45,773 nucleotides of DNA from a virus. A program made the translations under genes and the position numbers. The notes below the pieces were generated by a model. It was not told where the DNA came from. It did not search any database and saw nothing but the letters and a program-made list of their open reading frames with translations. This document shows, piece after piece, positions 2,149 to 22,605 of this stretch (positions within the stretch are counted from its first letter, which is position 1; every line of letters begins with the position of its first letter). The DNA lies in IMG/VR virus record IMGVR_UViG_3300033145_000637, positions 1 through 45,773 of that record. One strand, given 5' to 3'.

Positions 2149-2577
2149 CTACATCTTACTGTTATAAATTTTCAATACGCGCTTTGCGGACTCGACCAAA
2201 CTCCTAACCGCATATTTATCCTTTGGGTCAATGAACTCTTTTCCTAGGTCCATATTTTTTTTAACTAATTCAAGCCAAGAATGATTATCCATCACTATGA
2301 GCCATTCGTCTTTTGGCATTCCGTCATAGTGAATCACTACTGCTGGGGTGTTGTGGCTTTTGCCTGAATCTCTTACTGCTTGGCGCCACGCTTTTTGTAA
2401 ACTTAAATTCTTAACTGTCTTTACTTCAAAATGAAAATCTATATCGTTGCCAACATCTGATTTCTCTCTGTTGCCACCACCACTCTGTCCGTCTTTGAAT
2501 GCCTTTATGCCATTATCATAAAGCCAGTTGGCAAAATTGTTCTCTCCCCTGTTTCCTTTTTTCTTTGCGTTAATCAT
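2149..2577 (-). CDS. PD-(D/E)XK nuclease, Holliday-junction-resolvase-like
   Basis: With the start at 2577 (MINAKKKGNRGE) the protein has 142 residues. It shows the resolvase-type nuclease signature: an early Glu (E12 in KKKGNRGENNF), Asp in DIDFHFEVK (D45 or D47), E51-x-K53, then Q66 and a V-V-I-H strand. Such enzymes cut branched recombination intermediates or DNA ends. The start overlaps the methyltransferase stop by 8 bases (ATGATTAA); a TTG at 2616 is a poorer alternative. The adjacency to a methyltransferase also permits a restriction-modification reading, but the Hjc-like layout and the nearby RecA favour recombination. Confidence 0.65.
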   Translation of the reverse strand: MINAKKKGNRGENNFANWLYDNGIKAFKDGQSGGGNREKSDVGNDIDFHFEVKTVKNLSLQKAWRQAVRDSGKSHNTPAVVIHYDGMPKDEWLIVMDNHSWLELVKKNMDLGKEFIDPKDKYAVRSLVESAKRVLKIYNSKM

Positions 2578-3550
2578 TTTGAAATAATTGTTTTTGTTTA
2601 AGTCTGTTTTCGGCAATTTTTATATAACTTTTGTTCAATTCTATGCCAACCCATTTTCTGTTTAAGTGTCTAGCCACTACTGCCACAGTTCCAGCTCCGA
2701 AGAAAGGGTCTAAACAAATTCCTCCTTCTGGACAACCTGCCTTGATAGGTGTTTCGCACAATGCTTCTGGGAATACTGCAAAATGGGCTTCGCTGAATGG
2801 TTTGGTTGTTATTTTCCATACTGCTCTTTTGTTTCTGCCTTGTGGTTGAAGTTTGTTATATGTAAAATTGCCTGCTTTTCCACCGTCAATATAGTCTGCT
2901 TTCATTTTAGATGTTTCTGGTCTTTTTGCTCTTGCTTCTGAATATGGTTCTATTGTTGGCTCATACTGTGTTTCAAACCAATACTTCTTATTCTTTACAA
3001 AGAAGAATATCTTTTCAAAATCTACTGTGAACCTATCTTTTACGCTACTCGGCATACAGTTGGGTTTGTGCCATATCAATTCGTTTCTTAATATCCAACC
3101 TCTATTTGTCATTTCTATTGCGAAGCGGGAAGGGATTTGACAGAGAGATTTTTCAGGGGCATCAGCGTTTCTTCCGCGGCCGCTTCGTGTTGATTGTTTT
3201 CCTGTCTGTTTTTCATCAAATCTTTTTTTCATTAACTGAGACATGTTAGCATCTTTTTTTTTTTTTTTTTTCCTACCCTTAGTTGAATATGACGATTGTG
3301 AACTATAGGTATCCCCCAAATTCACCCAGCAAGTTCCGTCTTTTCTCAATACTCTTTTTACTTCATCAAATATATCGCAGAGTTTGGTTATGTATTCTTG
3401 GAATGTTGGCTCTAGTCCGAGTTGCCCTTCCACTCCATAATCCCTTAAAGCCCAGTAGGGCGGAGATGTCATAACCATATTTATGCTTTCGTCTGGGAAA
3501 GTTTTTAAAACCTCTAAGCAATCTCCTTGATATATGTGATTTGTTTTCAT
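2570..3550 (-). CDS. DNA methyltransferase, beta class (TSPPYW)
   Basis: This 326-residue protein probably methylates an amino group of cytosine or adenine in DNA using S-adenosylmethionine. Motif IV is TSPPYW at residues 28-33 and the AdoMet-binding motif I is near the C-terminus (LDPFFGAGT, about 280-288). That order defines the beta class. The SPPYW form is most common in N4-cytosine enzymes, with N6-adenine as the alternative. A Lys6 run at residues 94-99 is encoded by 18 consecutive A bases, an obvious slippage site. The gene follows recA after 5 bases and overlaps the resolvase-like nuclease. It may protect phage DNA from host restriction. Confidence 0.85.
   Translation of the reverse strand: MKTNHIYQGDCLEVLKTFPDESINMVMTSPPYWALRDYGVEGQLGLEPTFQEYITKLCDIFDEVKRVLRKDGTCWVNLGDTYSSQSSYSTKGRKKKKKKDANMSQLMKKRFDEKQTGKQSTRSGRGRNADAPEKSLCQIPSRFAIEMTNRGWILRNELIWHKPNCMPSSVKDRFTVDFEKIFFFVKNKKYWFETQYEPTIEPYSEARAKRPETSKMKADYIDGGKAGNFTYNKLQPQGRNKRAVWKITTKPFSEAHFAVFPEALCETPIKAGCPEGGICLDPFFGAGTVAVVARHLNRKWVGIELNKSYIKIAENRLKQKQLFQND
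3254..3271 (-). repeat. A18 homopolymer inside the methyltransferase gene
   Basis: Eighteen T on the plus strand, hence eighteen A in the coding strand, encode Lys94-Lys99 of the methyltransferase. It lies between motif IV and motif I, so gain or loss of one base would truncate the protein before the AdoMet site. Tracts of this kind drive phase variation in other methyltransferase genes. Homopolymer sequencing error must also be considered. Confidence 0.7.
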
Positions 3551-3555
3551 TTTTA

Positions 3556-4536
3556 CTAGTTCCCTAGCTCTTCCTTTATCCTCTTTACTATTTCTTTACT
3601 CATCTTAGGATTTTCTCTCAAAAAGATGCGTGCTTTGTCATAACCTACTCCTAGTCTCGTATCACCATAGGAATAAGAAGCACCTGCTTTTTTGATAATC
3701 CCAAATTTTTCTCCTAATCCTAAAATCTCAGAAGGCCTAGAAATACCTTCATTATATATCAAGTCAAATTCCGTTTTCTTGAACGGTGGGGCCACTTTGT
3801 TTTTTACAACTCTTGCTCTAATTCTTCCCCCTATAGTCTCCTCGCCTTTTTTAATTTGAGCTATTCTTCTTATGTCAATTCTCACAGAAGAATAAAATCT
3901 AAGAGCTTTTCCTCCTGCTGTAGTTTCTGGGTTTCCATACCCACCTATGTTCATTCTAATTTGGTTGATAAAAATAATTGTTGTGTTTGACTTTGCTGAA
4001 ACAGAGGTTAGTTTTCTAAGTGCTTGTGACATTAACCTTGCCTGTAATCCAATGTGTTTGTCTCCCATTTCGCCATCAATTTCTGTTTGTGGTGTTAGTG
4101 CGGCAACGGAGTCAATAACTATTACAGCAACTTCTCCAGAACGGACCAGGCTCTCAGTAATTTCTAGGGCTTGTTCTCCACTACTAGGTTGAGATAACAT
4201 TAAGTCTTTTACCTTGACTCCCAATTTTTCAGAATACTCTGAATCAAGTGCGTGCTCAGCGTCTACAAAAGCACATAGTCCACCTTTCTTTTGTGCTTCG
4301 GCAATAATGTGTAGAGCAAGTGTTGTTTTACCGGAAGATTCTGGTCCAAAAATTTCTACAACCCTACCCATAGGAACACCACCAACGCCTAGTGCGTGGT
4401 CAAGTCCAATAGAGCCAGTAGAGATAGCTCCCACGTCAACCTTTGGAATATCGCCAAGTTTTATTATTGAATCTTCGCCGTATTTTTCTTTAATCTCTTT
4501 CAGTATGGTTTCTAAATTATTTTGTTTTTTTGCCAT
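3556..4536 (-). CDS. recA: RecA recombinase
   Basis: A complete 326-residue RecA, the ATP-dependent strand-exchange protein. Seen in order: Walker [10 protein letters not shown] (64-72), the EHALD segment (94-98), Walker B VIVIDS (138-143), loop L1 around residues 150-167, the NQIR segment (191-194) and loop L2 with [12 protein letters not shown] (201-212). It ends soon after the core, without the long acidic tail of many bacterial RecA proteins. It sits among recombination genes (NinB-like, DEDDh exonuclease, resolvase-like nuclease). The leader is AT-rich, without a clear Shine-Dalgarno. Confidence 0.97.
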
Positions 4537-12610: not shown

Positions 12611-12639
12611 ATTATACTATTAAACTGATAAAATTTCAA
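12611..12639 (-). promoter_or_regulatory. Strong sigma70-like promoter before the holin gene
   Basis: TTGAAA (12639-12634) and TATAAT (12616-12611) are separated by exactly 17 bases. The predicted start is near 12604, the first base of the holin ATG, so the transcript would be leaderless or nearly so. The -35 overlaps the TGA stop of the upstream endolysin gene. Confidence 0.65.
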
Positions 12640-13154
12640 CCTATATATTTATAAAACTCTACTGAAAGTCTTTTGTATTTTGTTTTCCACATCCATACAT
12701 TGAAGTGTTCATCCCAGAGTGAATCATCGGAGTTATTGGACATTACCTTGTGATTGTCCGATACGATTCCGACATGTCCGATAGTGTTTCCATGAGTAGC
12801 AGAAATAATTATACATCCTCGTTCTGGTTCATTAATCTTTTTCCACCTAGGGTCTGAGTCTAATTCTGGTTTTAATCTGTAGGTTGACAGCCTCTCTTTC
12901 ATTTCTATGCCTGCCAACGAAAGGACAGCCGTTAGCGCCTCAACACAACCGTAGGTATTGTACTTGGCCGACATATCTTTACCCAAACAATTCTTGGCTG
13001 TTTTGTATATTATGTCGTTATAACTAAGCTTACTTTTTTCTTCTTCTATTTTGTCGCTCAAAAGAACAACGAATTGTTCACACAAAACAATCACTTTTTT
13101 GGTTAACTTTGCGATCGTCTTTTTTAGTTTTTTAATCTGTGATATTTTATCCAT
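12636..13154 (-). CDS. Endolysin, Cys/His peptidase (CHAP or NlpC/P60-like)
   Basis: This 172-residue protein has a basic helical N-terminus with a hydrophobic patch (KKVIVLCEQFVVLL, about 19-32) and a C-terminal domain. Cys70 (TYGCVEALTAVLSLAG) and His127 (ATHGNTIGHVGIVSD) fit the catalytic pair of CHAP or NlpC/P60-like peptidases, followed by VMSNNSDDSLWDEHF. It should cleave peptidoglycan peptides. The N-terminal patch could be a membrane anchor or a signal-arrest-release element. It overlaps the end of the M23 gene by 31 bases. Confidence 0.72.
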   Translation of the reverse strand: MDKISQIKKLKKTIAKLTKKVIVLCEQFVVLLSDKIEEEKSKLSYNDIIYKTAKNCLGKDMSAKYNTYGCVEALTAVLSLAGIEMKERLSTYRLKPELDSDPRWKKINEPERGCIIISATHGNTIGHVGIVSDNHKVMSNNSDDSLWDEHFNVWMWKTKYKRLSVEFYKYIG

Positions 13155-13792
13155 GTTCTATATAAATACTTAAGATAGCCACTTACTGGGCGCCTGACAC
13201 GACTCTTACGGACACCCATTACTTCTAAAACAAAAACGTTTTTGTACCACTCATCCATGTCTATTGCGCCATTATGTCCGTTATCTTTATTTAGTGTTTG
13301 TCCGTTAGCAGAAATGTCCTTTAACATCTCATGGACATGGTGTCCTGACGATGCTCCTGTGTTGTTACACTTAGCGATTGGCTGACCGAAGATAACTTTT
13401 TCACCGTCACTCTTAAGACTTTCCTTTAAGTGTCCGATAGTATATTTACGATAATGTCCGTTAATAGGTTGCCTTGACAGAACGTGCAACCAAACACCCC
13501 CATTAGATTCTTTCTCATTCATGGCGTACCATTCTACGCCCTCAACTTGAATAGGGAAGTAGGCGAGCTCTCCGTCCCAACATGGACGGTCTACACCATT
13601 GTGACCCTTGAGTCCCATGAATGGATACCACAAGCGCCATCCTCGTGGGATTTTGTTTGTATACTTAGGTCTGCGCCGGACAATGAAAGGTATGATGGGA
13701 AAATCTCCACCACCTGCGCATTTACAAATTGCATAGTTGGCTCCGAATGGCTGGCTTACTCTTGGGCTTTTAATTGGTCGATATATAATCAT
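13124..13792 (-). CDS. M23 family metallo-endopeptidase (endolysin)
   Basis: This 222-residue protein carries the LytM/M23 zinc site: H64-N-G-V-D68 (GLKGHNGVD) and H152-V-H154 (GASSGHHVHEM), plus a Y-T-I-G-H-L strand with H121. M23 enzymes cut the cross-bridges of peptidoglycan. The N-terminal S-Q-P-F-G segment is also typical. No signal peptide is seen, so release would depend on the holin or on entry with the virion. Its ATG overlaps the stop of the giant protein (ATGA). It may therefore be made late, together with the ejection proteins, and could act in entry as well as in lysis. Confidence 0.85.
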   Translation of the reverse strand: MIIYRPIKSPRVSQPFGANYAICKCAGGGDFPIIPFIVRRRPKYTNKIPRGWRLWYPFMGLKGHNGVDRPCWDGELAYFPIQVEGVEWYAMNEKESNGGVWLHVLSRQPINGHYRKYTIGHLKESLKSDGEKVIFGQPIAKCNNTGASSGHHVHEMLKDISANGQTLNKDNGHNGAIDMDEWYKNVFVLEVMGVRKSRVRRPVSGYLKYLYRTWIKYHRLKN

Positions 13793-16700
13793 AGTTTTAA
13801 ATCTAATTTTAAATCTTCTAATTCACCAAAGTCAAGGTCTAGGTCTAAATCAATATCTAGGTCTGTATCTTCAATACCTAAAACTTCTTTCGTTCGTTCA
13901 ATAGGGGCGATATATGTTTCCTCAATTCCTTTTAGAAACTCAAGAGAGCGTGGTTCTTCTGCGCCAGGTACATGGATGTAATTTGCAAGTTCCTGAATAC
14001 TGAATGTTAACTCTTTAAGAATTGAAAACGTAGGGTTGTTTGTGATTGCATCCGTGATTGGCTTAAGTGTGATTAGTTCAATAACACTATTGATGGTTTC
14101 AGCTATTGACTGAGCGACTCTCATGGCTCGCTTGTGTCCCATTCTGCCTAGTTCATAAGCGATATACATTCCAATTCCATACATAATGAAAGCCTTAGAC
14201 AATGCGCGAGTGTTCTTGCCCAGTTTCTTTCCAGTTTTGATTTCATTGTAAGAACCAACAGTCAAACGTCTAAGTAGATTAGCGTTAGTGATTCTCCATC
14301 GGTTCATTTGCATAAAGAGTCGACCGAACGATGTTTGTAGCCACAAAGGGGAGTCAACCTTAGTAAAGACACCCTGAGTAACTGCGATTAAATCTTTAAT
14401 TTCTCTGACTCTTTTGGTAGACAACTTTCCAGCTTTCCATTCCTCGGCTGTCATTTCACCTGCAAGAATACCTCCTCTAATTTCAAACTCACCAGCCTTT
14501 TGCATTATAAGGAGAAAGTCTCTTACTTTTTTATTGCTCAACAAAAGTCCCTTGGAAACGTATTCGTAAAACGCACCTTCCATCAATCCAGTATCTCTCA
14601 TTAACTGCAAAACTTTTCTGGGGTTCTTTAAATATCTAGCCTTTCCTGTTAGGTATTTATTAAGCTCTGTTCCAATAAAACTGTTGGCTTCACCTGCGGC
14701 CAGATTCTTAAGTCCTGACCAGTAGTTCAAACCAAGCAATTTGACATAGCCTAAGTCCACGATCGTATCAGCTATTTTTGAAAGCCACCCCATCTTCCCT
14801 CTACGGAAACTAGAATCCATACCTCGCCCTTTAAGATTTTGCAAAAAGCGTTTAGTCCATTTTGCTGTTCTTGGCTTAAGAAGTAATTGAACCATGGCCT
14901 GTCCTTCAGGCAATACTTTATCGAGAGCTTTCTTGGTTTCAAATAAATCAGAATAGGTATTCATGATGTGTCGCAGGTTGGATGATGGATCAACAATGTC
15001 GTGCCTCTCTTGTGCGAATCTGAAAAACTTCTCGCTACCTATTATATTGTCCAATTCCAACATGATGTTGATTGGTAGCAACTCTTCTAGTTTGCGAGCC
15101 TTACCTTTGGAAGTAACAAAGTTTTTGATTCCCTTAATAATTCCATTGCGAGCGATTTGTTCTGACAATGGTTTCTCTAGGTGGGTAACATAATATTTAC
15201 GAGCCTTGTCTAGTTCCAGTTCTCTGCGCACTTTCTTGAAAAAGTTTTTGAGATAGGCGACTACTGCAACTTCCTCCCTCGTCAGTTTTACCTTGAACCC
15301 TCCTAGGGCTTTGAATATTTCAATATTCTGGGGTACAACAAATCGTTTTAACTTCTCTTTCTTTGTGAGCTTTTTCTTCCTAGACTTCTCTGCTTTAGTA
15401 AGCAAAGCATCAAACTTCTTCAAGCGACTCTCATGCTTTACGCTCCCCTCAGTTAAAAGAGCATCTGCCTTGTCGACAACTCTGCGAACATTCTGATTTT
15501 TCTCTTTAACATCTACGGTAGGAAAAAGAGCGTCCTCAATATATTGGGTTATGTTTCCACTTAAAATATCACCAAACTCATTGTAGGTTTCAATTAATTC
15601 TCTTTGAGTGATCAGTTCAATTTTTGTACCAAACAAATCAAGGTCAATAAACTCTTCGAAGTCCTCACCCTTTTGAGTGAGGCTTTCCATTTGTTTGTCG
15701 GTTAACATCTTGTCACCAGGTTCTAACATTTCAAGGAATTGAATATACTCATCAAGCTTCTCGTCTGTGGCTTTTCTTGTGTCCTTGATTCCGAGTGCGC
15801 GCCTGATGCGTGACATTGTAAGATTGGAAAGTTCCTTTTCTATTTGGATAGCTTTGATTCTTGCGACTTCCTCACGTACACCAGCCACAACTTTCTCGGA
15901 CTTGGTCATGAAGTCATCTACAATCTCGCCAGTTTCACTGGTAGTTATCAGAGAAGTTGGGGTATTGCCCTCTTTATAAGCGAATATTTGCCCCTGTCGC
16001 AAGCTTTGTGACACAGTCTTGATGTATTCCCCATCCACATCGTTGGTTAAAGCGAGCTTTGCGCCCTGTTTTCCCATATCAAAGGCGTTTTTGTGGGCAT
16101 CAACAAAAGCCGTACCTGACTCAAAGTTCTCTAGTCCGGTAGCTTCCTTGTATACCTTGGCCGATAAAACGTAGGGTGGGTCAAAATAGAAACCGACAGA
16201 ACCAGCTTCTTGATTGGTCTTGAAATCCCTGACCATCTTAGCACCATCTTCATTATATAAAATTATCTTGGTGCCTTTTTCTTTTGCTAATTTAAATGTT
16301 TTGTTGGTATCACGGAGCCCTTCAACCATTCCGAACTTACCGAATATCTTTTGCTCGAACGTCAGGAATCCATTGATTCTCATTAAGGACTGACCCTTGC
16401 CTCCAAATACACCAATGCGATTGATAAAAGCTTTATCGACTGCATCCTCCAATGTGTCGACTTTTTCTGTGTAAACAGCATTAAAACCAGACTGGAATAG
16501 TTTAGCCCATACTTTGCGGTCCTCCTCAAAGACCGTTACCTGAGAGCCGATTGGTTTCTCTTTAATAAAAGAATTAAACTCAGCGCTTCCGATATAAGAT
16601 GTGGGATGTAGTTTGAAAAATTCATCGAGTAGTTCCTTTTGTTTGCCGGTAGAGTTTTTATAAATAATATCTGATAGTTTTCTAGCTGATTTTTTTATAA

Positions 16701-19700
16701 GCTCAACTACATTTTCTATCTTTCCATCTTGGACAGCTTTGACCATCATGTATTTTTCTTTATCAAAAATATTAGAATGAAACTCCTTGAGTCCATTGTT
16801 GATAGCATCTTGCATGGAATGAGTTCCAAGCGTGTAAGCTCCGGCATATGGTTCCACGATTATGTCGACACCTTCCTTTTTCACCCATTTGCCAAAAATG
16901 TTTCTGAAAAGCGGAACTGCGGTGTCTTTGTTTCCAAGCAAAGAAAAGGCCCGAGTGTTCATCCTACGAGATGGTCTGAAGAATGTTTTTATTTTTTCCT
17001 TTAGAGATTGGGAGATCTCCTGAAACTCTGCGGTTTTTTTGACCACGTCTTTTTCTGGCGGTGGCTTTTCCGCTTCCTTGTATCTGATACCAACTTCTTT
17101 TTCAACTGGAGTAACTGGTCTGCGCCCTTCCTGAATGTCCTTGAATACTTTGTTTATTTTTGATTCGGCGTTCATGGTCCTGCGAATGAACAGGACTATC
17201 TCCTCAAAGAATTGTTTTATCTTGCCGGAGAATGTTCTGCTCTCGGCTACGTGTTCGGCAAACATATCAGCCATGAACTCCTCTGAATCTTTTAGAGTTC
17301 TTAATTCAACACCAAGTCCTTTGGAAAAATCTTGAGTGGCAACCCTCAGTTCTGTGCGAGTTTTTGGGTCAACAAACAACTGCATATATTGATGAAATGT
17401 TTCGTGCCACAATTCCTTGTCGTGAACCTTGCCATTGTCACGGACTAACTTAATAAGTCCAGCTGACGAAGAACCCCACGCGAGCCTTCCATTAGGCATA
17501 AAAATTATACCGTCTTGGATATGGAGCTTGGTTTCTTCTTTCGTGAAAAATTTACGAAGTTCATTTTCGGCTTGTTCTTCTGTGATGAATTTACCTTCAC
17601 GTTTTTCTGCAACCTCCTTAAATGCTTCAACTGGAACTTTGGCTTCTTTTTTCTTCACCTGTATTTCAAACCACGTTACTCCCTGTGGGTCTGTGATTTG
17701 TTTCATTTCTGGGTGTATTCTTTTTAGATAGCGTGATACGTTCTTTTCGTAGAAACGATAGATGGGATTGTCTGTGTCTATTTTGCCAGAGATGTCAAAT
17801 TGTTCAGGATTAGCGTAAGTGAAATCATCAACAGTTCCTTCTAGTTTTCCAGCATTAACATCTTTAACAAAACTCTCAAATCCTTCATCAAAATCTCTTC
17901 CAGATGTTTTCATTCCTTCTATAACTTTACCTCTCAATACTGCCTCAAATCTTCCTTCACCCAGAACCTCTGTGACTATCCAACCTCTTTCTGCTGACAT
18001 TACTATTTCAATACCTATTTTTATATTTTCTTGAGTTAACGTGGTGGCAGAAAAACCTCCGGTTCCCGGTATTGCCCAATCGTGAGTTACTCCTAACCCC
18101 TCTATTTTCATAGCTGTTTCTCCTGTAGGGAATTGGAGTTTAATCTTGCCATCTTGTGCGGCGTGTTTTATTTCTTCTCTTATTATTCTTTCGTACCAGA
18201 CGTTGCGGTAGGGTTCTAGAGGTTCAAAAACTTTAATTTCTTTGTCCATTTTCTTCTGGGCCAACATCAAGGCTTTTTTTGCTTCACGCCAAGTTATCTT
18301 TTCACCATCTGCCGCTTCAATGGTCCTGCCTTTAAAATCACCTTGAGTGCCACCCCAAAAGTCACGCTTTGTATCTAGTGGAATGTCAATTTCTGACAGA
18401 GCATCATCCCATCTTTGTATTTTTTTTGTTTCACCTTTGAATTTATTACGAGTAAGGGTAAATTTTCTTCCATTAACTCGTACCACTTCCACATCTCCTA
18501 TCTCAAAATCCAATCTCCCCTTCTGAAACAGATCGCTTTGGATTTCTATTATTCTGCGATCTTTGTGTGACATATCTTCTATTCTTGTGTGAGCAAAATA
18601 ATTAGGATAATCTTTTGCAGAAAAATGAATACCACCTGCTGATGTTTCAATAGGACTTTCGTATATTTTTTCTCCATAATTAATAACATCTCCTCTCAGT
18701 TCTGGGGTTAATGTGGTATTTTCATATCTTGCCTCTTGGACTCCTGAAATGTTGGCCGCACCTGATCGTTCTTCGTTTGCTGTATATGTACCAGATGATC
18801 TGCCTGAAAGAGCATCTTCATTCTTCAATGGTAACAATTCTCCTTGTACTTTCTCAATAAATTTGGCAGTATCTACTTTTGGACCTTCATCTTCTAACAT
18901 CCTACGAATCATTTCACGCTCAGCTTGTTTTAAGTCTGGCTGATTAGATAAATCTTCAATGAATTGTTTGTCAATAGTTCCTTTGCCTTTTAATTTTTCT
19001 AGAGTTTTCAGAGTTACCTCTGGTTCTTTTACTTCTTCAATAGTAAGACCAGGTTTTATCTTGTCAGAAATACTCACAGCACCTCCGGCAACTCCAGCAC
19101 CAAGCCCGAGCAATCCTCCAAAGAATGCTGATTCAGATACGCCTGTCAATAAATCTCGGTTCTCATCATAAGAACGTGCAACTGCATTAGATACAATTTC
19201 CTGTAAAGATTCTGTGCCGGCTTCCTCTAGCGACTGAAGAACAACGTCTTTTACAATTTGCTTCATTATTCTTTTTTTAATTTGACCACCTGCAACTGTT
19301 CTGTTTAAGAATCTTGATACTGGAATCATCTCAAGAAGTCCATTAGTAATTCCAACCTTAGCCATGATAGCGGTAGCTTCTTCGTCAGAGAGTCCGAACT
19401 CTTTAGCATCCTGATAGGCAAAACCGCCCTCTAAGGCCGCCGAAACGCCAAAAGCGGAAACTACACCACCAACAGGACCTGCAATCGCTGTACCAGCGAT
19501 TCCTGCCCCAATAGAAGCGAGTAAATTGGGTGCATTGGAAGCTATGCCGGTAGCAATCCAGTCAGGGTTTTGGATTCCCTCCCTGAAAGCAATAGGGTCT
19601 TTGACTATAATTCCAGCAGTAGATAAGTCTTTGTCTTTTTCAGACAAGTTAATTAGTTTGTTTGACATCTCGTCAAATACATTTCTCACTATGTCAGGTC

Positions 19701-20037
19701 TTAAATCGTACTTTTTTTTCTCTGCAATCTTGCTCATTACTCGGCCAAGGGAAAGCTCAATGGCACTGGCTGATCGCAAGATAGCACCTCTGAACTCGGG
19801 GCCTTTGTCTCTTAGTCTAGGAACTGATTGAATGATAGCTTTTCCTACACCAAATAAATCCTCTGTACTGAAATCTTTATCATTCAAAGTCATCGGGGTG
19901 GTTGTCTCCACACCAAAAGCTGTCTCATCCAATGTAGATATGGGTGATAACTTTGGAAAAGTCGGCTTCTCTTCTTCTCCTGGTAGTTTTAGTTTACTTT
20001 TCCGTGTGAAATTTTTGTCTGGCAATATAAGAGCCAT
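13789..20037 (-). CDS. Giant polyvalent protein: EIQSD, HExxH peptidase and DPPY methylase-like domains
   Basis: A 2082-residue protein in the ejection-protein position of the tail block. Gly/Ala-rich hydrophobic segments lie at about 173-202 and 305-322. The EIQSD domain follows (IIEIQSD at 496-502, with W-Y-E-R-I-I-x-E near 614 and FPTGET near 636-641), a mark of phage and conjugative polyvalent proteins. A zincin-like HETFH is at 878-882 with EEFMADMFAE near 919-928 as possible third ligand. A D12-class N6-adenine methylase-like region spans about 1026-1365, with motif I VEPYAGAYTLG (1061-1071) and FDPPY (1285-1289). The rest is helical, ending in Asp-Leu repeats (2059-2081). It is probably injected with the DNA to act early in the host cell. 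Confidence 0.8.
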   Translation of the reverse strand: MALILPDKNFTRKSKLKLPGEEEKPTFPKLSPISTLDETAFGVETTTPMTLNDKDFSTEDLFGVGKAIIQSVPRLRDKGPEFRGAILRSASAIELSLGRVMSKIAEKKKYDLRPDIVRNVFDEMSNKLINLSEKDKDLSTAGIIVKDPIAFREGIQNPDWIATGIASNAPNLLASIGAGIAGTAIAGPVGGVVSAFGVSAALEGGFAYQDAKEFGLSDEEATAIMAKVGITNGLLEMIPVSRFLNRTVAGGQIKKRIMKQIVKDVVLQSLEEAGTESLQEIVSNAVARSYDENRDLLTGVSESAFFGGLLGLGAGVAGGAVSISDKIKPGLTIEEVKEPEVTLKTLEKLKGKGTIDKQFIEDLSNQPDLKQAEREMIRRMLEDEGPKVDTAKFIEKVQGELLPLKNEDALSGRSSGTYTANEERSGAANISGVQEARYENTTLTPELRGDVINYGEKIYESPIETSAGGIHFSAKDYPNYFAHTRIEDMSHKDRRIIEIQSDLFQKGRLDFEIGDVEVVRVNGRKFTLTRNKFKGETKKIQRWDDALSEIDIPLDTKRDFWGGTQGDFKGRTIEAADGEKITWREAKKALMLAQKKMDKEIKVFEPLEPYRNVWYERIIREEIKHAAQDGKIKLQFPTGETAMKIEGLGVTHDWAIPGTGGFSATTLTQENIKIGIEIVMSAERGWIVTEVLGEGRFEAVLRGKVIEGMKTSGRDFDEGFESFVKDVNAGKLEGTVDDFTYANPEQFDISGKIDTDNPIYRFYEKNVSRYLKRIHPEMKQITDPQGVTWFEIQVKKKEAKVPVEAFKEVAEKREGKFITEEQAENELRKFFTKEETKLHIQDGIIFMPNGRLAWGSSSAGLIKLVRDNGKVHDKELWHETFHQYMQLFVDPKTRTELRVATQDFSKGLGVELRTLKDSEEFMADMFAEHVAESRTFSGKIKQFFEEIVLFIRRTMNAESKINKVFKDIQEGRRPVTPVEKEVGIRYKEAEKPPPEKDVVKKTAEFQEISQSLKEKIKTFFRPSRRMNTRAFSLLGNKDTAVPLFRNIFGKWVKKEGVDIIVEPYAGAYTLGTHSMQDAINNGLKEFHSNIFDKEKYMMVKAVQDGKIENVVELIKKSARKLSDIIYKNSTGKQKELLDEFFKLHPTSYIGSAEFNSFIKEKPIGSQVTVFEEDRKVWAKLFQSGFNAVYTEKVDTLEDAVDKAFINRIGVFGGKGQSLMRINGFLTFEQKIFGKFGMVEGLRDTNKTFKLAKEKGTKIILYNEDGAKMVRDFKTNQEAGSVGFYFDPPYVLSAKVYKEATGLENFESGTAFVDAHKNAFDMGKQGAKLALTNDVDGEYIKTVSQSLRQGQIFAYKEGNTPTSLITTSETGEIVDDFMTKSEKVVAGVREEVARIKAIQIEKELSNLTMSRIRRALGIKDTRKATDEKLDEYIQFLEMLEPGDKMLTDKQMESLTQKGEDFEEFIDLDLFGTKIELITQRELIETYNEFGDILSGNITQYIEDALFPTVDVKEKNQNVRRVVDKADALLTEGSVKHESRLKKFDALLTKAEKSRKKKLTKKEKLKRFVVPQNIEIFKALGGFKVKLTREEVAVVAYLKNFFKKVRRELELDKARKYYVTHLEKPLSEQIARNGIIKGIKNFVTSKGKARKLEELLPINIMLELDNIIGSEKFFRFAQERHDIVDPSSNLRHIMNTYSDLFETKKALDKVLPEGQAMVQLLLKPRTAKWTKRFLQNLKGRGMDSSFRRGKMGWLSKIADTIVDLGYVKLLGLNYWSGLKNLAAGEANSFIGTELNKYLTGKARYLKNPRKVLQLMRDTGLMEGAFYEYVSKGLLLSNKKVRDFLLIMQKAGEFEIRGGILAGEMTAEEWKAGKLSTKRVREIKDLIAVTQGVFTKVDSPLWLQTSFGRLFMQMNRWRITNANLLRRLTVGSYNEIKTGKKLGKNTRALSKAFIMYGIGMYIAYELGRMGHKRAMRVAQSIAETINSVIELITLKPITDAITNNPTFSILKELTFSIQELANYIHVPGAEEPRSLEFLKGIEETYIAPIERTKEVLGIEDTDLDIDLDLDLDFGELEDLKLDLKL

Positions 20038-20040
20038 ATA

Positions 20041-20988
20041 TTATTTTTCTTCTTCTTTAATACCCATCTTATCTCTAAGTATGGATGTTATTTTATCAAC
20101 ATCAACATCACTCCATTTCTGTTTCTTCGCGTTCTTCTCAATCAAAAATAGAGCATCCTTAAATTCTTCTGGTCGTTTCTTGGTTAACTTCCTAACTGAA
20201 TCAAAAATCTGTTTAGCGATGCGGTCTAGAGCGTCATCAGATAGTGTTGTTTCTTTGGTTTCTTTTTTATCAAGGACTGCTGTAATTTCTGTTTTGGTTA
20301 ACTTCGTACCCCTCAATGCTTCATCTAGTAATTCTTCTCGAGAGGCATCGGGGTTTTTGCTTATAAGTTCATCAAGCCAATCATAGTCCTTGTCATCTTG
20401 ATCTTCATCAGTTGTCTTTGCACTTCCTGGTCCATAGTCTTTTATAAATTCTCCTGTGTCTAAATCAACAAGAACCTTCTTGTCGCCAATCTCAATTACC
20501 TGTGATCTAATCTTTGGTGGTTCGGCTTGGTCCAATGCTTGCTTTACCAATGACTCAGTAAAAGAAGTACCGGCTCTTTGAAAATCACCCAGTATCCCTG
20601 AGAAGTCTGAAGCTGGACCAACGCCAGGAGTAGCAAGTCCCATTATATCTGCCATCATGCGCGAGCGTTTCTTTTGGGCCAGGCCAACAGCATCAGAAAG
20701 AACTGATGAGAATGAACTAAGTCTACTTTTTGTTTCCCCAGGGAGTGTCTTTTTTCCGTCATCCAAACTCTTGGTGCTTTCCGCAACATCCTTTTTAGAT
20801 GGCAAGGGTGCCAGGCTTTTTTCACCTCTAAGAAGTTCAAGGAGTTCTTCGTTTTGCTTTCCGTGTCCTCTATAGTTTTTAACGCCGTAAGATTTAGCAA
20901 GCCTTTCACGAGCAGGATAGGAGCTATCTAACCCTTGTTTATTTAAAAAATCTACGATGGACGGATTGAGTGATTTTGTTTTTACCAT
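20041..20988 (-). CDS. Internal virion / ejection protein candidate (315 aa)
   Basis: The N-terminal part (SIVDFLNKQGLDSSYPAR, then LAKSYGVKNYRG and NEELLELLRG) is a short helical domain that I recognise from structural proteins of many environmental phages. A Gly/Ala-rich middle follows (LATPGVGPASDF), then an acidic helical C-terminal half. There is no enzyme motif. It sits between the 536-residue coiled-coil protein and the giant polyvalent protein, in the position of the internal core proteins of short-tailed phages. I infer a virion role. Confidence 0.6.
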   Translation of the reverse strand: MVKTKSLNPSIVDFLNKQGLDSSYPARERLAKSYGVKNYRGHGKQNEELLELLRGEKSLAPLPSKKDVAESTKSLDDGKKTLPGETKSRLSSFSSVLSDAVGLAQKKRSRMMADIMGLATPGVGPASDFSGILGDFQRAGTSFTESLVKQALDQAEPPKIRSQVIEIGDKKVLVDLDTGEFIKDYGPGSAKTTDEDQDDKDYDWLDELISKNPDASREELLDEALRGTKLTKTEITAVLDKKETKETTLSDDALDRIAKQIFDSVRKLTKKRPEEFKDALFLIEKNAKKQKWSDVDVDKITSILRDKMGIKEEEK

Positions 20989-20994
20989 AACATT

Positions 20995-22605
20995 TTAAAA
21001 AACGAAGCTACTGCTAAAACCAAATATGTCTTGTTGACGTTGTCTGGCTATACTACCAGGAATGCCACCTAGTGGCTCAAGCCCTGGTAACGATGGCAAT
21101 TTTTCTGTGCCAACTAATTCTTCTGCGGTTCTACTTAATGTTCTCTTTTTTTCTCCTGCAAGCTCTTTCAGTCTATCCACTTCCGCCTGAATATCACGTT
21201 CGTTACGCGAAAGAGTAGATGTCAACTCACCTCGTTTTAATCCAAATTTCCTTTTAGAAGATTCTCTTAATTCTCCGGAAACTTCTTTTTCTAGGGTTTC
21301 TTTTTCTGTTCGGCGAGTTGATCGTACGAATCCTGTCTCTGCCATTTGCTGACTGATATTCTCTAAGTCTTGAGTGAGTTTGCGGTCTAAGTTTTTGAGT
21401 TCTTGTTTTTGGGATATGTCTAAAAATTCTGTGCCGGTACGGACATCTTCCCTTAAGTCCTCAAGTTGTTTTAGTTTCTGGGTCTCTTGAAACTCAAGGT
21501 CACCCTCAATTTCTTCAAAGCCTCTTTTGAGAGCATCAGTAGCAAGCCTGATTTGATTACTAAAAAATGGGTCTGAAATCTTTTTGGCGGCTTCCATAGC
21601 TCCGAGCAATCTGTCAAAGTCCTCTTCACTTTTAGAAGATGATGCATCAAATATAGCGCGAATCATTCCTTGCTCGTCATCACTTAAACCTGAGCCAGCC
21701 AAGAGTTTGTCTAGATCTACATTTTCGTCTGTGTTGGATTCCTTGATTTGATTTTGTTGGTCAGATGTTGGAACAATGTCTGGTTTAAAATCTGACTGGT
21801 TGCCAACATATTCCCAGTTTCCGTCTGGTAAATATCCGACTATGTCTCCGCTGGCTAGAGTTTCGTATCTCACATATTTACCACCTGAAAGTTGTTTCAC
21901 ATCTACATCGCCAGAGTAGTTTCCTGTGTCAATTTGTTTCTGAAGTTCCTTGACAACAATATCAGGCGCGACTTGTCCGGTTTCAATTAGTTTCATAAGA
22001 GCTTCGTATTGTGCGGGAGAGATTGTGTCGCCCTGCCCTGCGGCCGCTGACTCTAGAGCTTCGCGGGTAGATGGCGCTTTTGATATTTCACCCGTAAAGC
22101 TAGAAGTGACATCCGCCCCTTGTGGATTGATAGGGGATATTGATTTGGTTATTATTTCGCCTGTTTTTATAGTTTCAGGTTTTGGTAAAGCAAAAGCAGA
22201 AACATCTTGACTTGAGACAGACGCACCAAAAGCTGTTTGCAAATCTGCATAGTTAAAATTACCAGTAGGGGTTTTTTCATAATCAATCCCTTGTTCACTC
22301 AAAGCTATTTTTCCATATTTACCAAAAAAACCTTTACTTATTTCTTCTTTATGCCCATCAGGAAACTTGTAAACATAGGTTGGTGCATTAGAAATCAATC
22401 TACCTTGTGCATCAACATTTCTTGCTTCTACTGCACCAATACCAGCTAGATACTCTCTACCCAAAGTCTCCACACCCAAAGTTTGAATACCAGTCTCTGT
22501 TCTCTTGAAAATTGTTGGTGCACCTCCTTTGTCTCTAAATACCTCCCCGATGTCGGGAATTGCGAAACTTAAATTTTGATAAGGTATTTTGTATGTTCCT
22601 GCCAT
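20995..22605 (-). CDS. Coiled-coil internal virion / ejection protein candidate (536 aa)
   Basis: The first third is beta-rich and low in charge. A short motif near the middle (LLAGSGLSDDEQGMIRAIFD) precedes a long, charged heptad region (about 340-500; DLEFQETQKLKQLEDLRED and similar) that must form an extended coiled coil. Proteins of this kind occur next to the portal or tail genes of many environmental podoviruses and probably belong to the internal core that is ejected ahead of the DNA. It is the first gene of the three-gene ejection block, separated from the tailspike by the lone plus-strand gene. Confidence 0.6.
   Translation of the reverse strand: MAGTYKIPYQNLSFAIPDIGEVFRDKGGAPTIFKRTETGIQTLGVETLGREYLAGIGAVEARNVDAQGRLISNAPTYVYKFPDGHKEEISKGFFGKYGKIALSEQGIDYEKTPTGNFNYADLQTAFGASVSSQDVSAFALPKPETIKTGEIITKSISPINPQGADVTSSFTGEISKAPSTREALESAAAGQGDTISPAQYEALMKLIETGQVAPDIVVKELQKQIDTGNYSGDVDVKQLSGGKYVRYETLASGDIVGYLPDGNWEYVGNQSDFKPDIVPTSDQQNQIKESNTDENVDLDKLLAGSGLSDDEQGMIRAIFDASSSKSEEDFDRLLGAMEAAKKISDPFFSNQIRLATDALKRGFEEIEGDLEFQETQKLKQLEDLREDVRTGTEFLDISQKQELKNLDRKLTQDLENISQQMAETGFVRSTRRTEKETLEKEVSGELRESSKRKFGLKRGELTSTLSRNERDIQAEVDRLKELAGEKKRTLSRTAEELVGTEKLPSLPGLEPLGGIPGSIARQRQQDIFGFSSSFVF

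Follow-up and report, generated by a model that had tools for sequence, protein, structure and literature searches.

A 45,773-nucleotide viral contig (IMG/VR record IMGVR_UViG_3300033145_000637, positions 1–45,773; hereafter the window) encodes a giant protein of 2,082 amino acids that joins unlike domains in one open reading frame (ORF): an EIQSD domain, a zincin-like domain and a Dam-like methylase domain. We read it, with a probability of about 0.62 for the joint scheme, as a modular polyvalent protein that is packaged, ejected, released by its zincin and equipped with a methylase that shields entering DNA. Virions would carry the protein and eject it together with their DNA, the zincin would cut the polypeptide, or a host protein, releasing domains, and the methylase would mark adenines of the incoming phage genome ahead of cleavage by host restriction enzymes. 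The sites methylated would be those left uncovered by the phage’s other methylase, with GATC as the first candidate. The protein probably comes from a phage of Patescibacteria, and little is known of how such phages enter and overcome their hosts.

The protein is encoded by a single ATG-initiated ORF, the longest found, at 13789..20037 on the minus strand; the original prediction had given the same ends but no strand. Residue r corresponds to window positions 20037-3r+1 to 20037-3(r-1), and the features of the protein and the four genes flanking it all lie on the minus strand. Gene order runs from terminase through major-head-like and tail-fibre-like genes to a 536-aa gene (20995..22605; family unassigned) and a 315-aa gene (20041..20988), the N-terminal segment of which matches PHROG lysin/peptidase families, and then to the giant ORF. 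An M23 peptidase-like gene (13124..13792), which overlaps the giant ORF by 4 bases, and a CHAP/NlpC-like gene (12636..13154) follow, both recognized by Pfam below its cut-off. The position after structural genes therefore stands, with the 536- and 315-aa genes intervening and the M23-like gene overlapping. In the sister phage G010 gene order is the same and the giant gene closes the structural block. The longest ORF, late in a structural block and helix-rich, could also be the tape-measure protein of a long-tailed phage that acquired enzyme domains, but we consider this highly improbable: no tail-tube or tail-assembly genes were recognized, the C-terminal module is the only long helical part, and length does not track a tail, since the giant proteins of relatives measure anywhere between ~800 and more than 5,000 aa and their ends are unrelated. 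The short tail originally proposed is a putative feature: tblastn searches against annotated phages returned no match for the presumed portal protein or for two proteins from the tail region.

Pfam, NCBIfam and PHROGs searches of the whole protein and of pieces of it returned no methylase, peptidase or EIQSD match, and because none of the domains matches Pfam they were tested one by one. The EIQSD, HExxH and DPPY motifs are not chance occurrences, each region having conserved homologues, and the ranges first proposed for them (residues 440–780, 840–940 and 1020–1370) fall inside domains of ~331–810, ~803–985 and ~1020–1400.

The EIQSD domain (residues 331–810; 17608..19047) spans ~480 aa and contains the motif at residues 498–502 (18532..18546), which is conserved in alignments. 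Relatives were collected from viral contigs with a hand-made EIQSD pattern and then by alignment; homologues, ~40% identical across ~470 aa, occur in ~49 viral loci, and many of the polar residues are strongly conserved. The original description of a domain typical of polyvalent proteins is right in that the domain is real and large, but not in treating it as a named one, as the literature searched contained no relevant paper on ‘EIQSD’ under that name. Structure prediction brought out a fold that the earlier reading had not suggested. In an AlphaFold model that includes the domain (mean pLDDT 72, with many EIQSD-domain residues above 85), residues 400–802 appear GNAT-like: the best 50 structural rows are acetyltransferases, nearly all GNAT, at Z 7.2–9.5, and the best row reaches Z 9.5 over 121 residues, compared with best Z values of typically 7–8 for unmatched models. 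Foldseek E-values were above 0.9, hhalign of the domain against 15 GNAT proteins gave under 1%, and the acetyl-CoA motif R/Q-x-x-G-x-G/A is absent after strand 4, the residues following EIQSD being LFQKGRLDFEIG. We assign a GNAT-like fold with moderate confidence, and the region is probably a further enzyme-like domain of that fold. Membership of the GNAT family itself is not claimed here because the sequence-profile test is negative; the CoA motif is also missing.

Residues 803–985 (17083..17631) are a predicted zincin-like metallopeptidase. Within them, residues 834–972 align with giant crAss-like phage proteins that bear the annotation of RNA polymerase subunits (best E 5e-7). In an alignment of 12 proteins the HE..H of the predicted zinc-binding and catalytic motif HETFH (residues 878–882; 17392..17406) is invariant, as is, ~37 residues on, the second Glu of SEEFMAD (E920; 17278..17280), the predicted third zinc ligand. 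The zincin known from polyvalent proteins has been described with a Glu provided by a helix that comes after HExxH (PMC5512222), and the domain fits that description through its HExxH and conserved Glu. The possible downstream ligand of the original prediction thus has a candidate, kept with HExxH in all twelve proteins. Self-processing by a zincin of its own protein has been inferred for DdrB of P1 (PMC5512222).

The methylase domain covers residues ~1020–1400 (core ~1037–1369; 15838..16980). The Pfam D12 model, which is less sensitive than the hhalign comparison, found nothing in the window. In an AlphaFold model of residues 985–2060, the best 17 structural rows are EcoDam, DpnM, T4Dam or 7m6b (titled Mcbe1), at Z 9.2–11.8 with 198–225 residues aligned, whereas rows outside this group reach Z 8.7 at most. 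Foldseek places EcoDam at ranks 1–6 with probability 1.00. Local model confidence (pLDDT) is ~70–88 in the methylase core but lower outside it, and averages 45 across all 1,076 residues modelled. The modelled elements run strand-helix-strand, long helical insert, strand, strand with DPPY, strand, as in Dam, and the motifs follow the alpha-class order of X, I, II, helical insert and DPPY, the insert sitting between motif II and the beta strand preceding DPPY. Comparison by hhalign of a profile of the four homologous methylase domains with nine Dam-type proteins gave a probability of 94% (E 1.2e-7), compared with 0.2% or less for controls made from reversed and five column-shuffled versions of the methylase profile. 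Together, the structure matches and this independent profile test with its shuffled controls show a D12/Dam-class fold for the modelled domain, and N6-adenine methylation is its likely activity. Fold, motif order and profile comparison thus concur with the D12-class methylase that had been proposed from the motifs, and for this domain as for the zincin the evidence now goes beyond the motifs themselves.

Homologues of the methylase were found in three other phages: L135, which came from the EIQSD-domain relatives (39% identity over the whole region), and L173 (57% over the domain) and L175 (41%), which were added by two methylase scans of viral contigs. The second of these scans, run with the methylase profile, returned the same three phages only. 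No homologue was found in plasmids, nor in 379 genomes, a sample drawn from the phylum of one Patescibacteria genome. Invariant in the four-way alignment are the motif X lysine of LLGxK, EPYAGA, NIFD, YN.DG, DPPY, TND and YKEGxTPTSL. Motif I (EPYAG, residues 1062–1066; 16840..16854) reads EPYAGA(Y/F) in all four, keeping the first Gly and replacing the second with Tyr or Phe. After strand 2, where an acidic residue is usual, all four apparently have Asn, so the SAM pocket may differ from that of typical members. These substitutions, and GATC counts that are below expectation in every carrier (0.30–0.79), would suit a domain that kept its Dam fold as a structural relic or as a module holding DNA or an effector, without methylating. 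Such a relic is an unlikely explanation: DPPY (residues 1286–1289; 16171..16182), whose loss would be expected in a pure relic, is invariant in the four phages at 39–57% identity, together with the motif X lysine and the motif VI Asn-Asp.

Both ends of the protein also have relatives. The Gly/Ala-rich N-terminal region (residues 150–328; 19054..19590) is similar to N-terminal sequence of the virion RNA polymerase family phrog_2206 (7e-10) and to other giant phage protein families, contains hydrophobic segments at residues 172–203 and 303–324, and is carried by an ORF of L117 as well. The helical C-terminal module (residues 1420–2060; 13858..15780) is 55% identical in L173, with stretches at 74%, and 27% identical in L136; an iterated profile search gave no link to LPD38. 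Residues 1650–1900 (14338–15090) are up to 74% identical to L173 and are conserved beyond most of the methylase domain. The protein ends in an Asp/Leu-repeat tail (residues 2055–2082; 13792..13875), a similar repeat ends the L173 protein, and other short repeats end those of L135 and L118; these C-terminal ends are possibly packaging tails. The terminal repeats of such giants have short periods (DLDLDL, LPSLPSLPS and KFNKFNKFA), and they lie at window positions 13792–13875 and at the C-terminal ends of ORFs 5034–11219 of L173, 5751–14942 of L135 and 9380–16633 of L118.

Comparison with relatives supports the polyvalent reading. L135 encodes EIQSD, HEAFH and DPPY in one 3,064-aa protein. All three modules follow one another there as they do here, so their joining is no accident of a single genome. 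L173 retains residues 978–2060 at 55% identity without the EIQSD domain, and has a different N-terminal half with its own HESFH zincin; its phage agrees with the window in gene order, and identity is 54% for RecA and 51% for the exonuclease but only 21% for the portal. EIQSD-domain relatives carry ART-PolyVal (3e-19), LPD38 (1e-22), a weak SLT match or CAP. By sequence comparison, this swapping of modules is the shuffling characteristic of polyvalent proteins, and the status originally proposed is supported by the Pfam polyvalent domains (ART-PolyVal and LPD38) of relatives and by the exchanged N-terminal half in L173. We note that the L135 protein (P0002) also has sequence resembling, by eye, ART and ParB domains at residues ~590–700 and ~1790–1870, which Pfam does not report, and that L121 has two consecutive ORFs (746–2392 and 2388–4535) with EIQSD in each, as if a polyvalent protein had been split or duplicated.

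Packaging is a prediction, and the window encodes a separate N6/N4 methylase; both would allow a protein that stays out of the virion and is made in the infected cell, either late or for host takeover, with its methylase marking progeny DNA. We judge this improbable, since the gene comes last in the structural block, beside hydrolase-like genes, the N-terminal region resembles virion RNA polymerase giants, and relatives have polyvalent domains, a class that phages encode close to virion genes (PMC5512222). Packaging and ejection of the polyvalent protein remain our preferred reading.

The likely host is a member of the Patescibacteria: the seven best genome matches of the window’s RecA (3556–4536, minus strand) are all from this group, at 64–74% identity, an assignment from RecA that gene transfer could mislead. 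The sister phage G010 also has RecA (54%). Adjoining the window’s recA gene and a gene for a RusA-like Holliday junction resolvase (2149–2616) is the N6/N4 DNA methylase gene (2570–3550, minus strand; PF01555, E 7.6e-50).

Among the window’s 4-base palindromes, GATC shows the strongest depletion (44 versus 149 expected, 0.30), and TCGA (0.40) and GGCC (0.60) also fall below expectation, despite the two methylase domains. Among EIQSD relatives without a Dam-like methylase, GATC is entirely missing from G004 (43.7 kb; 0 versus 150 expected) and G007 (43.5 kb; 0 versus 137 expected), and such total absence in large contigs is a sign of very strong restriction pressure. GATC-free contigs include G004 (L235, L119 and L236), G007 (L122, L237 and L238), G001 (L117 and L234), G006 (L121), L125, L146, L150 and L159; some also lack GGCC, CCGG, CATG, GTAC or CTAG, and a methylase of a different class is present in two of the GATC-free records. 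Genome pieces from the Patescibacteria phylum have ordinary GATC levels (0.65–1.15). All four carriers of the Dam-like methylase keep GATC, with 19–187 sites (0.30–0.79 of expectation), so that 0/4 carriers are GATC-free compared with ~8/26 non-carriers, a difference that is not significant because the carriers number four and only ~8 of the 26 non-carriers are GATC-free, too few phages in all. The pattern is suggestive, fitting strong restriction at GATC combined with a Dam-like protector, and other causes exist. A fuller scenario can be drawn, in which intense GATC restriction in Patescibacteria has led some relatives with >40-kb genomes to lose every such site, four phages inject a self-processing Dam-class protein that protects GATC at entry, and the EIQSD domain is a GNAT-fold enzyme that modifies a host protein; taken as a whole, this is speculative and unlikely to hold in every part.

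Comparison with known systems places the protein close to, yet apart from, several of them. The EIQSD domain resembles GNAT acetyltransferases in predicted fold and differs from them in its large inserts, its lack of detectable profile similarity and its lack of the CoA motif. Dozens of phage giants contain this domain, for which no assigned function was found, and a GNAT-like fold would offer a first handle on it. With the giant virion proteins of crAss-like phages the protein shares a zincin-like domain with the same HExxH...EExxA motif, and with the N4-type family phrog_2206 it shares N-terminal similarity, the virion RNA polymerase of N4 being an injected giant phage protein (PMC5512222); unlike these giants it has a methylase and an EIQSD domain and no recognized RNA polymerase domain. 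The methylase resembles Dam, DpnM and T4 Dam in predicted fold, motif order, DPPY and a helical insert that separates the N-terminal from the C-terminal part of the Rossmann sheet, but is only ~12–17% identical to them, is embedded in 2,082 aa, and has a larger insert and an altered motif I.

Like the polyvalent proteins of phages described by Iyer et al. 2017 (PMC5512222), the protein is giant, combines disparate enzyme domains including a zincin, lies beside virion genes, swaps modules and has relatives with ART-PolyVal or LPD38. The methylase usual in polyvalent proteins is of the gamma class, with NPP(Y/F), and DarB-type dyads fuse it to a SWI2/SNF2 helicase; here the methylase is of the D12/Dam class with DPPY, no helicase was found in the ORF with Pfam, NCBIfam or PHROGs, and the source is probably a phage of Patescibacteria. 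The closest functional parallel is DarB, a head protein of P1 that protects P1 DNA in cis (PMC5512222): in both, a methylase belongs to a giant phage protein whose presumed target is incoming DNA. As the helicase partner of the DarB dyad is missing, the methylase class differs and the phage is of another type, the protein may work like DarB without being one. The injected polyvalent class was previously known mostly with the DarB-type methylase and helicase. A Dam-class methylase replacing that pair in a polyvalent protein suggests a simpler, helicase-free protection of incoming DNA for which GATC is a testable site.
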